Assembly: GCF_963678975.1 (NCBI RefSeq) | Contig: NC_089276.1 | Location: 32,318,368-32,382,367 of the forward strand | Source: Dysidea avara | Lineage: Eukaryota; Porifera; Demospongiae; Dictyoceratida; Dysideidae | DNA: 64,000 nt | Reading direction: 5' to 3' | Shown: piece by piece, positions 2,749 to 13,772 of the stretch | Layout: each line of letters begins with the position of its first letter | Position numbering within the stretch: the stretch's first letter is position 1 | Position numbers and translations under genes: made by a program | Notes under the pieces: model-generated | The model's database searches: none | The model's input: the letters and a program-made list of their open reading frames with translations, nothing else | What the model was told of the DNA's origin: nothing

Positions 2749-2876
<128 letters not shown>

Positions 2877-3298
2877 TGTTGTTTGTCCGTACACACCCAC
2901 GTGAGCAAAAACGTTAAAAATGGTAAAAAGCAGCCAGCATGTAAGAATTAAAAGCTAAATTAAGTCTGTATTAAACTTCCACACGCATAAACTTTGTTCT
3001 GAGGTGGTTACTTCCTCGGCAGTCTGAAATACGATTATGATGACTCTTCATATATTTCTTGAACAGTCTTCTGTTTCAGTTTTATAGATGTTTAACAACT
3101 TTAAAACAACATTGAAGGCCTCTTAAGCTACCAGAGGTAGCATATCCTTCGAGTTCAATGGGGGGCGTCACCCATACTTATGCGACCAAAAATGAAGGGC
3201 AGCCTTGAGGCTTTCTCTATACAATTCACATGAGAAAACACAATAGATACACTATAAAACAGTTGAGAAGACACTTCCATGTGTAATTTTCAGTTTAA

Positions 3299-3412
3299 AG
3301 GTCAACTGAAATGGAAACTTCATGTATGATTTTGTATTGTTTGTATCAAGCAATGCACAAAACACCATTTTAATAATTCAATTATGCTGATATTATGAGA
3401 TATTAACCCACA
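3299..3412 (+). repeat. Left terminal inverted repeat of Kolobok element
   Basis: Matches the reverse complement of 7143-7268 over its whole length with a few mismatches. It lacks an 11 bp piece (around 7227) present in the right TIR. Confidence 0.9.
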
Positions 3413-3488
3413 AATTCTTAATACATCACGTATAATTATTTTCGTGATGTCACTGAAAGAACGGAAGCGCGTCTTTGTATGTGTTAGA

Positions 3489-4244
3489 ATGGCGGAAAGT
3501 GATAGCTGCAGCGACTCTTTGGTTGATGATAGTGATTCTGACGATTCCCAATTGACATCTTTGTCTTCTGTGGCTGGTGAAGAACTGTTGTTGACTGGAC
3601 CGTCAGAAGTGATGCCGTATCGCTTTGAACCAGTGTACGAGAGCAGGCTCGAAGAAAGAGAGGAATCTTTCAGTCTACTGGCGGTCGAAAGAGAGGACAC
3701 AGAGGCTGATCGCATAGGAAATATTGATTGGTAAGCTACATACACTAAGTTGCGTAAATAATACAAACTGTATATGGTGCACGGTTGCATTATATAGCTA
3801 TATAGCGAAATGACATAAGCTAGCTACCCATGGCTATGTAGCTATAGCCTATGGCATAACTTTGTTGGCTAAGCCTCATTGCCCATTACTGTTCTATAAT
3901 TTAGTTGATCCACATTGCTATCTAGGTGCAGATGTGGCCATTGCATAGTAATGGCTACACAAAGAGAATCAATATGCTGTAAGGAGATTGAACAAATTAA
4001 TAGTCTTTTGGAAGGTGATGGCTTAGCTGTTCGTCCAGTGTGTATTTCAGAACATGCAGATTTTTCTAATGTGTGTCTGTGTAGAGCAGTCCTAATGGTA
4101 ACACTGCATAGCCATCGATACCATTATGGGAGTGCTGATGAACCAGCTGATGAAAACAGGTGCTTATGGTCTTTCAATCTGCCAGTGTTGTATGATGTGT
4201 GCATATTTTCAGAAAATTTCAATACTTGGCGTACCGACAGATGA
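3489..4244 (+). CDS. P2X7-receptor C-terminal (ballast) domain-like protein, transposon-borne
   Basis: Two exons are inferred. Exon 1 runs from ATG 3489 (an in-frame ATG lies at 3447) to 3730 before GTAAGC; exon 2 starts at 3926 after TATCTAG. The junction restores a Trp codon and gives a continuous NIDW-CRCGHC motif. The N-terminus is rich in Ser, Asp and Glu; then come PYRFEPVYESR, the CxCGxC knuckle, an ESICCKE block and CISEHADF..VCL. This order matches the cysteine-rich cytosolic ballast domain of P2X7 and its standalone invertebrate relatives (probably a zinc-binding module). No membrane segments, so it is not a receptor. Exon 2 stops at 4242-4244. The family's later Ala-Tyr-rich block seems to continue in another frame (about 4160-4240), so the C-terminus may be frameshifted. 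Its role in transposition is unknown. Confidence 0.65.
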
Positions 4245-4408
4245 CTTGGTGGGGATGGCACTATTTGGGCAGGCACAGGCGTGTAGTACTTCCCTCCTAT
4301 GTAATATCAAGGATAAGACAGGAATTTCCATCAAATGAATATAAAGGTCATCAGCATCCACCAAATACACCTTAAGTAATTTTCATGTATCAACACATAC
4401 ATTTATTA

Positions 4409-7004
4409 TTAATTATTATAATGTGAAAATTGTGGTATTGTATCTTTATCTGGATGTTTATATTGACTAGCTAATTTTGGTGGTCCCTTTGGTACTGTAG
4501 GTCTTTCCTCTGGGTGTGTAATGTAGTGTGTAGCCTTACTGATTAGTTCCTCAGCATAGTCCAGTAAATGCATATGATAAATAATATTGTTACTGTCCTT
4601 GTTACTTACGATATGTTGGTGGTACTGGAACAATTTTAGGAGTACATTCTCCTTGCTTGGCCTTTGGAAAGCATAGTCTCATCCTCTCCATTCCGGACTT
4701 CGTTACTGCCTGTTTCCTCCCATAATTTTCATTAAAATGCATTAGGGCAATTAATAACCTGCATTGTATTTATTTAATCATTTGTATATTATAGTAATTA
4801 TCACCTTACCTGCAGTACATTCCTTCATAAGAAAAGGCTAGTAACTTAGGAGCAAAATGGTTTACTACACTATGGTAGCTCTCCAAGCTGCTTGTCTGAT
4901 GGTGTGGTGACAGCTTCTTGACATCTGCTATGAGTCACTCATTGCAAATGACATCACAGACCTTTTCATAGACTTTGCCACCTTATTAAATTATAACTAC
5001 TAGGTTCCATTCATAATATACCTGGCTGGAGCCACTTTTTACGTCGATCTCCTAGGTCTTGAGTGTGGTAGCAATTCTCATGCTGATCACATAGATGTTC
5101 CATCAGTGATTTCCACCGAATAGCCATCTCCTTCCCATCACCACCCGGTGTTTTCACCGCACACCAGTACATGTGGTTGGTAATGCTTTTAATCCACTCA
5201 CCCACCACTTCACAATCTTTGTATTTAGCTATCTTTAGTAGCTTCTTTACACCTAGGAGCAAAAATTATAGAGTCAAACATGTACCCAAAATGACAAACC
5301 TTTTGCAACATGCCAAACATCAAAATGATGGTCAATATCTGGATAGCTTTAGCTCACAAATTTTGTAACCTGCTTGTGACGGTCAGTAATCAGTGCACCT
5401 ATATTTATTGGTTTCTCCATTAAAAATTGCAGAGCATTTTTCAATCCTTCCTTTTCCATGTGATTGCTAGATGCTACCAAATTGCTCTGCACAGTTAATA
5501 ACATTATGAATAAAGAAACATTAGTTGTGGCAAACCTGAACAAGCTCTAGGTGGATAACTTTGTTGGAGGATAGGTCAATTATTCCGTATGACCCATATT
5601 TGGCAGAATGCCCAGGACTATCAGCATGTCCATCACCACCGATAGTGAGTGGATTGCCACTAGCTCTACACTGTGCTAGCAATTCCGCCTGTTTTGTATC
5701 CCAAACTGATATGACTGCTGGCTCTAAGTACTCCTTCTGATGAATGTATGTAGTATGCTCTATCTGTAATGCATGCAATGTTCATGTGAGATAGCACCCT
5801 GAGGACTTTTGTAGCTGTTTCTCCACTATATAAAATAGCTGCAGATAGTAGAATATTTCCTGCAGGGGTATCTTTGATACGTGGTTGACTTGCCCACACT
5901 CTTTGATATCCACAATGATGGCATACTTGCTTTACAGTAATATAGGTGCCCTTTGGCTTGGTTATGACTCCAGGACATGAGCTGTGACACAGTGTACAGT
6001 GTGTAAATAGTTGTATGAGTGCTGATCTAAATATTATGTATTTGATTTCATCCCTTGTTGATCCTGGATCAGCTTCAGTAGATGGCTGCAGGTTGTCATC
6101 ACTGTATTAACACAAATTAGTGATGATTAATTGTTTATAGGTGTGGATGAATCAGTACTCACTCTGTTGTGGCTTCGTCTTGAGAAATTTGAAACGAGTC
6201 ATCAATATCACCATCTTCAGGCTCACTTGATTCAGTGGTAGTATCTGCATGAAACATGAGTGTAAGAGGGGGTGCTGCCAATAGATCACACTGGGTTTCA
6301 ACTGATTTTGTGCCAGGAGTAGTCATTGGGTCTATTCATTGGATACAGAGTATAGTAGCTATTTCCATACTGTAGTTTGTTTTGATGCTAACCTTTGTCA
6401 TCTGCTCCTGACTGTATTTCTGTAGGTTTTCCTGACCGTATTTCCATAGGAATCATACCTGTTGAAGTAGATGCCAACAACAGAGGGCTGCCTACGTCTT
6501 CAACTGGGGAACTTCTCCTTGGATCATCCGCACTTGATTGCATGGTTGAGCTGGTGTCTTGTAACTCTTCAACAATCTGTATTAATAATGTTTTAATACA
6601 TATAATTATTAGCTATGTTGTTTTTTCAAACATACTGCTTTTTGCTTTCTTCGTTCTGAAGCTGGTCTACGAGATTGTGTTGACACTTGGCAGCTGTTGC
6701 TGCTGCTACCACTGCGAATAGGCTTGGGGAAAACAGTTGGAATGGAGTCTGGCTTGAGGCACGGCTTCTTGGCTGGAACGCCCATTTCTTCACGATAAAG
6801 TCGCCCTTCTGTGTTAAAGCATTCGGGTTTGAAATGCTTCGAGCAAATTAAGGAAGCAGTTGTTGGTCCTTTCCAATCCTTACGCTGTTGATGCACAGCC
6901 CTTACCCACTTTGAGCGAACAGCTGCATCACTAGGAAATCCGCGTAAGCTGTAGCCCATACCTCCTTCAGTGTGACAACCAGCAACTACACAACATCTTG
7001 GCAT
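4409..7004 (-). pseudogene. Kolobok THAP-domain transposase, multi-exon, decayed
   Basis: About nine exons with GT/AG borders can be followed: 7004-6636 (THAP), 6576-6459 and 6244-6163 (acidic, Ser-rich linkers), 6101-5536, 5486-5300, 5252-5022, about 4980-4810, 4758-4610 and about 4550-4409. Exon 4 has a CxxC...CxxC zinc motif, then SQPRIKDTPAGN and GDGHADSPGHSAKYG, which likely carries the first catalytic Asp. Exon 5 ends DHHFDVWHVAK; exon 7 has [15 protein letters not shown], which likely carries the catalytic Glu. This order is typical of Kolobok-type cut-and-paste transposases. Lesions: a one-base frameshift near 5770, an in-frame TAA at 5349-5351 and a TGA at 4935-4937. No intact protein is expected. 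Exon borders are by eye, and the last exon is the least certain. Confidence 0.8.
6636..7004 (-). other. THAP DNA-binding domain exon
   Basis: First coding exon of the transposase, intact. The start MPRCCVVAGC places the first two zinc ligands at Cys5 and Cys10; CSKHF gives Cys54 and His57, completing the C2CH finger. Trp33, the FPSD block and a DSIPTVF box (AVPTIF-like, near residue 90) are the usual THAP landmarks. THAP domains bind DNA and are known in P-element and Kolobok transposases, where they contact the transposon ends. The donor GTATGT follows at 6635. Confidence 0.88.
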
Positions 7005-7142
7005 AGCGTATTCGCTTCTAATATTGTCAGGCGTTAAAGTGAACTTGAATTTAAACTAGATTTTGATAGTTATAGCTATGCCGTTTTATGCAATACGCAT
7101 ACCGTAACTCTTCTTGTGACGATTTATAAAATTACCAAACTT

Positions 7143-7268
7143 TATGGGTTAATATCTCGCAATATCAGCATAATTGAATTATTAAAATGGTGTTTTTGTG
7201 CATTGCTTGATACAAACAATACATCCATACAATAAAATCATACATGAATTTTCCATTTCAGTTGACCT
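7143..7268 (-). repeat. Right terminal inverted repeat of Kolobok element
   Basis: Complement of the left TIR, ending cagttgacct before TTAA. It carries an 11 bp insertion relative to the left copy. Confidence 0.9.
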
Positions 7269-7272
7269 TTAA

Positions 7273-10257: not shown

Positions 10258-13200
10258 CAAGTTATTCTGTAGGGAGTTCAGCTGCAAACAGTTAATCTTA
10301 TAGACAGTTCAGCAAGAAGACAATCACCATGTGGAGAGTTAAGCAAATATATCACTATAGAGATTCAGAACATTACAAGTCACACTGAAGAAAGTTCAGC
10401 TATAAACAAGTCATGCACTGTGTAGAGAATTCAGCTACAATTAAGTCACTCTCTAGAGAATTCAGCTACACAGAATTCAGCTACACACAAGTCACCGTGG
10501 AGAGAGTTCAGCTACAAACAAATTACCCTTTAGAGTGATCAGCTACAAACAAAACACTTTGCAGGGTGTTCAGCTGCAACAAATCAACCTTTAGAGCGAT
10601 CAGCAATGAACAAATCAACACAAATCTACCTGTAGAGAGATAAGCTAGAAACAAATTACCCTGTAGAGAGTTCAGCTACAAAAAATCACCCTGTAGAGAC
10701 ATCAGCTAGAAACTAGACACAATGTAAGGAGTTCAGCTACAAGCAAATCACCCTGTAGAGAGTTCAGCTACAAACAAACCAACCTGTAGAGCGATCAGCT
10801 AGAAACAAATTACCCTGAAGAGAGGTCAGCTACAAAAAATCACCTTGTAGAGAAATCAACTACAAACAAAACACTTTGCAGAGAGTTCAGCTACAAACAA
10901 ATCAACCTTTAGAGCGATCAGCAACAAACAAATCAACCTGTAGAGAGATAAGCTAGAAACAAATCACCCTGTAGAGAGTTCAGCTAAAACAAATCAATCT
11001 GCAGAGAGATCAGCTATGTACAAATCACCTTACAGATAGTTCAGCTACAAACAAATTACCTTGTAGAGAGATCGGCTACAAACAAATCACCCTGCAGAGA
11101 GAACAGCTACACACATATCAACTTGTATAGAGATCAGCTACAAACAAATCACCCTGTAGAGAAATCAGCTACAAACTAGACACAAAGTAAGGAGTTCAGC
11201 TACAAGCAAGTTACACTGTAGAGAGTTCATCTACAAGCAAATCAATCTGCAGAGCAATCAGCTAGAAACAAATCACCCTGAAAAGAGGTCAGCTACAAAA
11301 AATCATCCTGTAGAGAGATCAGCTAGAAACAAATCACCCTGAAGAGAGGTCAGCTACAAAAAAATCACCCTGTAGAGAGATCAGCTAGAAACAAATCACC
11401 CTGAAGAGAGGTCAGCTACAAACAAAACACTTTGCAGAGAATTCAGCTACAAACAAATCAGCTTGTAGAGAGATCAGTTACACACAAATCAACCTGTAGA
11501 GAGATAAGCTAGAAACAAATCACCCTGTACAGAATTCAGCTACAAGCAAAACACCCTGCAGAGAGTTCAGCAACAAAGAAACCACCATGTAGAGAGTTCA
11601 GCTGCAAACAAATCACCTTATAGAGAGTTCAGCTACAAACAAATCACCCTGTAGAGAGATCAGCTAGAAACTAGACACAATGTAAGGAGTTCAGCTACAA
11701 GCAAATCACTCTTTAGTGAGTTCAGCTACAAACAAATCAACCTGCAGTGAGATCACCTACAAAAAAGCACCTTGTACAGAGTTCAGCTACAAACAAATTA
11801 CCCTGTAGAGAGATCGGCTACAAACAAATCAACCTGTAGAAAGATCAGCTACACACAAATCAACTTGTAGAGAGATCAGCTACAAGTAAATCACCCTGTA
11901 GAGAGTTCAGCTAAAACAAATCAACCTGCAGAGAGATCAGCTACAAATAAATCACTTTATAGACAGTTCAGCTACAAACAAATTACCTTGTAGAGAGATC
12001 GGCTGCAAATTAATCAACCTGCAGAGAGGTTAGCTACACACAAATCAACTTGTAGAGAGATCAGCTACAAACAAATCACCCTGTAGAGAGATCAGCTAGA
12101 AACTACACACAATGTAAGGAGTTCAGCTACAAGTAAATCACCCTGTAGAGAGTTCAGCTAAAACAAATCAACCTGCAGAGAGATCAGCTACAAATAAATC
12201 ACTTTATAGACAGTTCAGCTACAAACAAATTACCTTGTAGAGAGATCGGCTGCAAATTAATCAACCTGCAGAGAGATCAGCTACACGCAAATCAACTTGT
12301 AGAGAGATCAGCTACAAACAAATCACCCTGTAGAGAGATCAGCTAGAAACTAGATACAATGCAAGGAGTTCAGCTACAAGCAAAATCACCCTTTAGTGAG
12401 TTCAGCTACAAACAAATCAACCTGCAGTGAGATCACCCACAAAAACGCACTTGTACAGAGTTCAGTTACAAACAAATTACCCTGTAGAGAGATCAGGTAG
12501 AAGAATTCACCTTGTAGAGAGTTCAGCAACAAAGAAACCACCATGTAGAGAGTTCAGCTGGAAACAAATCACCCAGTAGAAAGATCAGCTAGAAGAAGTT
12601 ACCTTGTAGAGAGTTCAGTTACAAAGAAACCATCATATAGAGAGTTCAGCTACAAAGAAATTACCCCGTAGAGAGTTCAGCTAGAAGAAGTCACCTTGTA
12701 AAGAGTTCAGCTACAAAGAAACCATCATGTACAGAATTCAGCTACAAAGAAACCACCTGTACAGAATTCAACTACAAACAAATCACCCTGTATAGAGATC
12801 AGCTAGAAGAAGTTACCTTGTAGATAGTTCAGCTACAACAATTCACCCTGTAGAAAGATCAGCTAGAAGAAGTCACCTTGTAGAGTGTTCAGTTACAAAG
12901 AAACCATCATGTAGAGAGTTCAGCTGCAAACAAATCACTCTGTAGAGAGTTCAGCTACAAAGAAACCGCCATGTAGAGAGTTCAGCCTCATACAAACCAC
13001 CTTGTAGAGAATTCAACTACAACAAATCACCCTGTAGAGAATAAGTTACCTTGTAGAGAGTTCAGCTATAAAGAAACCATCAAGTAGGGAGTTCAGCTAC
13101 AAAGAAACCACCATGTAGAGAGTTTAGCTGCAAACAAATCACCTGTGGAGAGTTCAGCTAGAAACAAATCACCCCGTAGAGAGATCAGCTGGACGAAGTC

Positions 13201-13570
13201 AGCTTGTAGAGAGTTCAGCTACAAAGAAACCATCATGTAGACAGTTCAGCTGCAAACAAAGCACCCTGCAGAGAGTTCAGCTACAAAACAATCACCCTGT
13301 AGAGAGTTCAGCTAGACGAAGTCACCTTATAGAGAGTTCAGCTACAAAGAAACCATCATGTAGAGAGTTCGGCTACAAAGACACCACCATGTAGAGAGTT
13401 TAGCTGCAAACAAATCACCTGTAGAGAGTTCAGCTAGAAACAAAATACCCTGTAGAGAGACCAGCTAGAAGAGGTTACCTTGTAGAGAGTTCAGCTACAA
13501 AGAAACCATCCTGTATATAGTTCAGCTACATTTCAAGTCACCCAGTAGAGAGATCAGCTGCAAAAAAATA
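10258..13570 (+). repeat. 30-31 bp satellite array, copy A
   Basis: Over 100 monomers of the type gtagagagttcagctacaaa plus caaatcaccct. Two sub-types alternate (gagagttcag and gagagatcag), and blocks of several monomers recur, giving higher-order repeats. The open frames here are translations of the repeat. Confidence 0.95.
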
Positions 13571-13772
13571 TCCTGTGGGGCATAATGGGCATGTAGTAAA
13601 TATATATATATAATTTGTATAATTACTAATAAAATCAAAAATAATTGAAGCACTAAAATTCTTCTTTAAGTTCTTTTCTTCTTCCTGTAGTGAAGAAAAA
13701 AACACATGGGTTAAAAAAGCCCCAAAGCCAGCCATAGGCCGGCTTTGCAGTATACAAATACAAAAAGAAGTG

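Follow-up and report, generated by a model that had tools for sequence, protein, structure and literature searches.

A gene with a P2X7 ballast-type domain, very probably the KolX accessory gene, in a TTAA-flanked Kolobok transposon of the sponge Dysidea avara

The window analysed here is a stretch of 64,000 nucleotides from the 550.8-Mb assembly of Dysidea avara (C5:32318368-32382367), and this assembly is also the genome that was scanned in the surveys below. Between positions 3299 and 7267 the window holds a TTAA-flanked Kolobok transposon with a THAP/DDE transposase on the minus strand and a convergent gene on the plus strand. This second gene is very probably KolX, an accessory gene, and the element a THAP-type (Kol0-like) member of the Kolobok DNA transposons in the sponge. 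The features of the element are the following:

3295 to 3298, no strand: left TTAA target site, read from the sequence (TTAA in 8 of 9 other fetched copies, ATGC in copy L018)
3299 to 7267, no strand: Kolobok element of 3969 bp with termini 5'-AG...CT-3' (nine full-length matches including the window copy)
3299 to 3414, plus strand: left terminal inverted repeat, partner 7141-7267 (element self-matches 1-116 and 3843-3969)
3489 to 3730, plus strand: KolX exon 1, with an acidic N-terminus and the PYRFEPVYESR motif
3731 to 3925, plus strand: intron 1, 195 nt, GTAAGC...CTATCTAG (GTAAGC and TCTAG in 8 of the 8 other copies retaining the region)
3926 to 4159, plus strand: KolX exon 2, with the zinc cysteine clusters CRCGHC, ICC and PVC
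4160 to 4212, plus strand: intron 2, 53 nt, GTGCTT...ATTTTCAG, of the GT..AG type
4213 to 4375, plus strand: KolX exon 3, AYRQ...VVLPSYVISRIRQEFPS, with the stop ending at 4375 and P2RX7_C positions 144-188 in frame
4840 to 5781, minus strand: remaining DDE core of the transposase, in pieces (GGDGHADSPG, TDRH, DVWH and LESYHS, read by eye)
5666 to 6106, minus strand: open frame with part of the transposase core (PF20700, Mutator, E=4.2e-4, 19.8 bits, under the cut-off of 26.5)
6609 to 7055, minus strand: open frame with the THAP domain of the transposase (PF05485, E=2.4e-14, 54.3 bits)
7141 to 7267, minus strand: right terminal inverted repeat, from the inverted-repeat arms and the element self-matches
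7268 to 7271, no strand: right TTAA target site, read from the sequence (TTAA in 9 of 9 other fetched copies)

The first letters of the element are AGGTCAACTG and its last letters CAGTTGACCT. The terminal inverted repeats are about 120 bp long and 95-100% identical across the outer 116-127 bp, with arms at 3291-3333/7234-7276 (95%), 3333-3362/7194-7223 (100%) and 3359-3414/7141-7196 (95%). The element shows the duplicated TTAA target site of Kolobok, and its AG...CT termini have the 5'-RR...YY-3' form that belongs to the definition of Kolobok and distinguishes it from piggyBac (PMC9587614). The first-pass annotation, which had proposed a TTAA-flanked Kolobok element with terminal inverted repeats, was thus right on this point, with TTAA on both sides, inverted repeats and a length of 3969 bp. 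To the left of the element the window contains (CTGC)n at 10-356 (87 perfect copies), (GT)n at 2748-2859 (56 copies, 96% matches) and, at 1040-1510, a near-palindrome around 1200 followed by a further partial copy, which looks by eye like a foldback element. To its right, 10472-13576 is a long tandem array. Its 31-bp unit, AGAGTTCAGCTACAAACAAATCACCCTGTAG, is repeated about 83 times in 10472-13040 with 76% matches, and it also has periods of a higher order (62 and 154); the strong excess of A over T in this array is seen again at 56-60 kb and mirrored at 30-32, 40-44 and 46-48 kb.

From its sequence, the best model of the KolX gene has three exons (3489-3730, 3926-4159 and 4213-4375), whose predicted splicing gives a protein of 212 aa. 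The same annotation had described a two-exon plus-strand frame; the frame and the three blocks quoted from it stand, whereas the number of exons is three and the end is at 4375 instead of 4244. Its 186-aa version reads through into intron 2 up to a wrong-frame stop at 4244 and reaches 22.4 bits against P2RX7_C, just below the Pfam cut-off of 23.5, with the rest of the domain left in a separate frame. That the gene really has two exons and stops at 4244, or is a decayed frame with a frameshift, would agree with the fact that the unspliced frame stops there and the domain goes on in another one, and with the differences of the NCBI models between sister copies, splicing here being predicted. We regard it as very improbable, however, since the 53-nt GT..AG intron brings back a single frame, 7 of the 8 other copies retaining the region preserve the splice sites of this intron (donor GT in 7, AT in L023; acceptor in all 8), the spliced gene scores 49.2 bits instead of 22.4, and the NCBI models P0001 and P0002 both have the exon 2-exon 3 join. 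On the strength of the intron, of the splice sites of the copies and of the NCBI models, the two-exon and frameshift models were dropped for the third exon. Model P0001 consists of three pieces, each a 100% match to copy L017, and it shares the splice joins of the three-exon model; its start is matched by an in-frame ATG at 3447, upstream of the exon 1 start at 3489. Model P0002, of a second copy, is without about 25 residues of exon 2 and retains the exon 2-exon 3 join.

The search of the spliced protein against the P2X7 C-terminal family, suggested as a check in the first-pass annotation, gave a significant result: the 212 aa match Pfam P2RX7_C with E=8e-13 and 49.2 bits (protein residues 55-202, profile positions 53-188), and the spliced protein of sister copy L018 reaches 58.5 bits. 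As a single protein against PDB, the window KolX matches residues 457-595 of the P2X7 chain 6u9v with E=1.2e-4. Pfam gives P2RX7_C alone in the 212 aa, the P2X channel domain with its two transmembrane helices being absent. Judged by these matches, the domain is homologous to the P2X7 ballast, and a ballast-homologous second protein, as in KolX-bearing elements, lies within the element. Among the seven conserved zinc cysteines the window copy has six (LPSC is changed to LPSY), and L017, L018 and L022 have all seven. Copy L020 is without a different one (PVC to PVR). The arginine matching rat R546 is a glutamine in the window copy, and L017 and L018 have both the cysteine and the arginine. Along the 6u9v alignment, the window copy keeps only R578 among the five guanine-nucleotide contacts listed for the rat receptor (PMC7016195), and not R546, H547, R574 or K583, while sister copies such as L018 keep both R546 and R578. 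In the AlphaFold model of P0001, residues 91-220 form 13 blocks of ten residues, of which 12 have a mean pLDDT above 70 and one has 66; the model is poor across the N-terminus (mean pLDDT 67).

The minus strand of the element carries a DDE transposase with a C/DxxH motif, read by eye and with a PF20700 match under the cut-off, together with the THAP domain that is a usual feature of Kolobok transposases (PMC6004289). The core frame at 5666-6106, used as a probe, finds 131 matches genome-wide, a count that includes the match of the window itself. Seven sister copies match residues 1-125 only of this 146-residue frame, and downstream of it there are further stops and a frame change relative to the sister copies. 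Since these interrupt the DDE core, the transposase of the window copy appears to be broken when it is read without intron models, and since KolX here is also without one zinc cysteine and the R546-matching arginine, the window copy as a whole looks dead.

A DNA search of the genome returned nine full-length matches including the window, the other eight being 95-97% identical to it; these eight and one internally deleted copy were fetched (L017-L025). The printed flanks (16-20 bp) of the copies are all different. The gene region is present in all eight other full-length copies. Of the 10 aligned rows, five have a KolX frame that is uninterrupted from the start codon to the stop (window, L017, L018, L020 and L022), four have a broken one (L019, L021, L023 and L024), and L025 is without exons 2 and 3. 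The same KolX gene is found in a second family (L026-L029, L034 and L035) with DNA about 67% identical to the window family. A frame restricted to a single copy had been named beforehand as an outcome that would speak against a transposon gene; here the gene region is in eight sisters, and another family carries the gene. Between the families, dN/dS is 0.112, 0.131 and 0.184 for the KolX domain (three pairs) and 0.116-0.129 for the transposase core (four pairs), with synonymous distances of at least 1.4, near saturation, in all but one pair. Near-identical copies give no signal of constraint, with few changes that are mostly nonsynonymous: L017 and L018 differ by 0 synonymous and 2 nonsynonymous changes in KolX and by 1 and 2 in the transposase, and L018 and L020 by 0 and 5 in the transposase, numbers too small for a test. 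This is as expected if copies decay after insertion. A related Kolobok family, L030-L033, has a transposase core about 60% identical, with THAP matches listed beside L030 and L031. By tblastn, no KolX match was found in L030-L033 (5.5-7 kb) or in L036.

Across the genome, the P2RX7_C profile gave 81 matches, which merge into 77 loci; this is a lower bound, because the exons of the window's own copy score too low singly and the copy is missing from the count. With the window transposase as a probe, 29 of the 77 ballast loci have a transposase match within 6 kb, 28 of them convergent. None of the 22 best-scoring P2RX7_C loci has a window-type transposase within 6 kb; a second, divergent transposase adjoins 17 of them, and five are without any transposase match. 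With both probes, 57 of the 77 loci are paired within 6 kb, 56 on opposite strands and 55 convergently, as compared with a mean of 0.58 and a maximum of 4 paired loci in 500 random placements (the contig end being taken as the largest coordinate seen). In the reverse direction, 56 of 160 merged transposase loci have a P2RX7_C match within 6 kb; among the best 24 matches of each probe, 6 of the window type and 21 of the second type have a ballast match within 6.5 kb. These transposase-side counts are undercounts, because the Pfam search misses split exons such as those of the window itself, and the low window-type pairing is partly due to this, the search having passed over copies in which KolX is known to be present. 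The presence of at least 77 ballast loci in one sponge genome contradicts, for a sponge, the published figure of one or few (<10) ballast genes per species in the survey across Metazoa by Rump et al. (2020), which draws no link to transposons in its treatment of these genes (PMC7016195).

The first-pass annotation had suggested a survey of other Kolobok elements for a convergent gene of this kind and had supposed that at least some ballast relatives are transposon accessory proteins. Such a gene is present in the other copies and in the second family and is usually convergent (55 of the 57 pairs), and the supposition gains support from the 57 of 77 loci that adjoin a transposase. The idea that the best ballast matches are host genes was dropped, given the divergent transposase beside 17 of 22 and one family flanked by TTAA in two copies. 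The 20 ballast loci that lack a transposase match within 6 kb may be remnants of elements or may have been domesticated. They also fit another history, in which the ballast was an old host gene taken up by Kolobok, with P2X7 and the transposons each drawing on the host family. Standalone ballast genes, reported across Metazoa and as linked with two markers in animals ranging from sponge to molluscs, arthropods and echinoderms (Rump et al., PMC7016195), point the same way. Against it, 57 of the 77 loci adjoin a transposase match, and although the trees described below are unrooted as to direction, we consider this history improbable.

The two transposase types go with two types of KolX, which we call KolX-A and KolX-B. 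In KolX-A, the window's kind, the domain is split by an intron and preceded by an acidic N-terminal stretch with a PYxFEP motif; proteins of fish, annelid and oyster have this motif as well, and those of ticks have an altered form of it. In KolX-B, the entire domain lies in one open frame, and in 18 of 21 places a Cys-rich exon of the pattern CxCKxxCxxxxCPC...CxCG...CxNK precedes it; the NCBI model P0014 (247 aa) joins this Cys-rich part to the ballast domain. On the criterion of a THAP match within 6 kb, with 150 of 586 THAP candidates scored, 16 of the best 24 matches of KolX-A transposases have one and none is listed for the best 24 of KolX-B transposases. The loci of the KolX-B lineage are:

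L037, positions 2829 to 7001, together with L039, positions 1 to 1125; and L038/L040
L001 to L008: related loci

Two copies of one KolX-B family are both bounded by TTAA, about 5.2 kb long and set in dissimilar fetched flanks, with 98.7% and 96.7% identity over two stretches; their termini are TTAA|AGGGGCAATGCG and GCATTACCCCT|TTAA. Because of these boundaries and dissimilar flanks, KolX-B is taken as a transposon gene, at least in one family. By eye, its transposase shows the motifs DGRCDSPG, TDASS, DVWH and LESFH; the pieces tested against Pfam gave no significant match, and the assignment as Kolobok or Kolobok-like rests on TTAA, the RR..YY ends and these motifs. From this sequence evidence KolX-B is a second type of KolX, described as such here. 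For its Cys-rich exon, Pfam and PDB searches gave nothing significant (CSRNP_N E=0.33, PBP1_TM E=0.22, a chance PDB match E=0.36), and DNA binding by it is therefore a guess; its pattern is reminiscent of CXC-type motifs (tesmin/EZH2/MSL2). Scans of viruses and prokaryotes with a KolX-B alignment gave 25 and 91 pattern matches respectively, none of them confirmed in either.

As to function, the most likely role for KolX would be that of a transposase helper, a proposal based on its co-occurrence with the transposase in two lineages, the similar between-family dN/dS of the two genes, their convergent placement and a possible trade of modules. More precisely, and with confidence evenly balanced, KolX may be a nuclear zinc protein that aids the transposase in excision or integration, for example by holding the complex of transposase and ends together or by contacting DNA. 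The zinc core would fold the domain, and a docking peptide would be provided by the acidic N-terminus and its PYxFEP motif. The DNA-side modules may have been swapped between types, with THAP on the transposase in A and the Cys-rich exon on KolX in B. The absence of KolX beside some related transposases speaks against a universal need for it. The lack of a KolX match at some related Kolobok loci (L030-L033 and L036) would also be in agreement with an action of KolX on the host and not on transposition, either preventing the silencing of the element or blunting a host response, as would its existence as a separate convergent gene instead of a transposase domain and the use of the domain in a host protein, P2X7. 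An anti-silencing role fits nearly as well as the helper role, and the two facts that favour the latter, the resemblance of dN/dS between KolX and transposase and the adjoining of the two genes in two divergent lineages, are compatible with it too; we nevertheless hold an action on the host to be rather unlikely and keep the transposase helper as the preferred role.

P2X7 would then have gained its ballast later, by exon capture from an element belonging broadly to this kind. The link between the vertebrate receptor domain and a mobile gene, already raised in the first-pass annotation, is strengthened at the level of homology: besides the single-protein match of 1.2e-4, P2X7 chains are matched with up to 86 bits (E=2.6e-23) when the profile is made from five sponge KolX-B proteins, and with up to 62 bits (6.8e-16) when it is made from nine of KolX-A (sponge, tick, annelid and fish). 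Three unrooted trees were built, in which P2X7 is represented by three rows on a long branch (with a long-branch warning in the first and second trees); these rows are PDB chains, presumably mammalian. The first tree had six sponge-type rows and one tick on the KolX-A side and, of 120 listed KolX-B-type matches, 40 on offer, from which rows with the WCxCxxC pattern were used; the third is the second minus the long fish rows P0193 and P0192 and plus four KolX-B rows. KolX-A stands apart from P2X7 in all three (support of 98/93, 94/97 and 99/94). KolX-B excludes P2X7 in the first (90/78) and third (85/66) and includes it, without support, in the second. A nesting of P2X7 within KolX-B was accordingly not borne out. 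In the third tree, AU tests speak against a grouping that unites P2X7 and the KolX-A of vertebrates (p=0.025; amphibian 0.0095; fish 0.033), these p values being somewhat optimistic because the groups were chosen after the earlier trees had been seen. The spacing from CC to the next cluster is 13-20 in 14 of 15 KolX-A rows (4 in the newt row, because a nearer cysteine was matched), 6 in all three P2X7 rows and 4 in 12 of 15 KolX-B rows (two of the others are without a pattern match and P0113 has 24).

A fair statement from these comparisons is that P2X7 would be no offshoot of the sampled THAP-type KolX and that KolX-B appears as its nearer match. In unrooted trees this nearness is suggestive only, and may point to another donor lineage. 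That the P2X7 ballast came not from a THAP-type (Kol0) Kolobok but from, or next to, the KolX-B lineage is possible, and we put it forward tentatively, as a minority expectation. KolX-B elements could have donated P2X7 exon 13 in one step, because in them a single exon encodes the entire ballast. P2X7 is the subject of much research as a drug target, and its ballast has no settled function; if KolX-B was the donor, the original role of the ballast could be tested in a concrete element with closely similar copies.

The link between transposon and ballast is already in print. Kojima & Bao (2022, PMC9587614) describe KolX of Kol0 Kolobok elements as having the P2X7 ballast fold, with similarity to human P2X7 476-595 and with Kol0 in vertebrates, annelids, cnidarians and sponges, and in their account P2X7 arose when a P2X4-like gene and KolX were fused. 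The window copy is a further example, in a further sponge family: like Kol0, it is a TTAA element in which a DDE transposase is accompanied by another protein, and it shows no substantive difference from what that paper describes. The main text of the paper is without the terms THAP and CXC, and its passages on KolX are without a second type with a Cys-rich exon. In the open-licence literature we found no other paper that ties the P2X7 ballast to transposons. With the P2X7 ballast itself, the zinc-coordinating cysteine domain (PF20478; PMC7016195), the window protein shares the WCxCxxC, CC...C and LPSC clusters and the AYR...IRxEFP tail; it differs in being without the P2X channel part and in the CC-to-C spacing of its type (13-20 in all but one of 15 THAP-type rows, whereas the three P2X7 rows all have 6). 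Rump et al. (PMC7016195) also mention two tick models with another domain before the ballast, printed in one case as 'TAHP'; if this means THAP, we infer that the tick model is the expected product of a Kolobok transposase and its neighbouring KolX. The tick protein P0145, with a ballast domain, bears the UniRef name 'Kolobok-2 xt'. Eight proteins of 166-247 aa (P0001, P0002, P0014, P0007, P0138, P0142, P0171 and P0172), with P2RX7_C alone as listed Pfam content, are named 'P2X purinoceptor 7' or '7-like' in databases, and the name 'P2X purinoceptor 7-like' for transposon proteins misleads annotation. Zebrafish nanor and the 'P2X purinoceptor 7-like' proteins of fish, ticks, oyster, annelid and frog share the ballast domain with the window KolX, and several of the latter proteins, nanor not being among those seen, share the PYxFEP-type N-terminal motif as well; nanor differs from the window KolX in that it is described as likely to be a domesticated KolX (PMC9587614).
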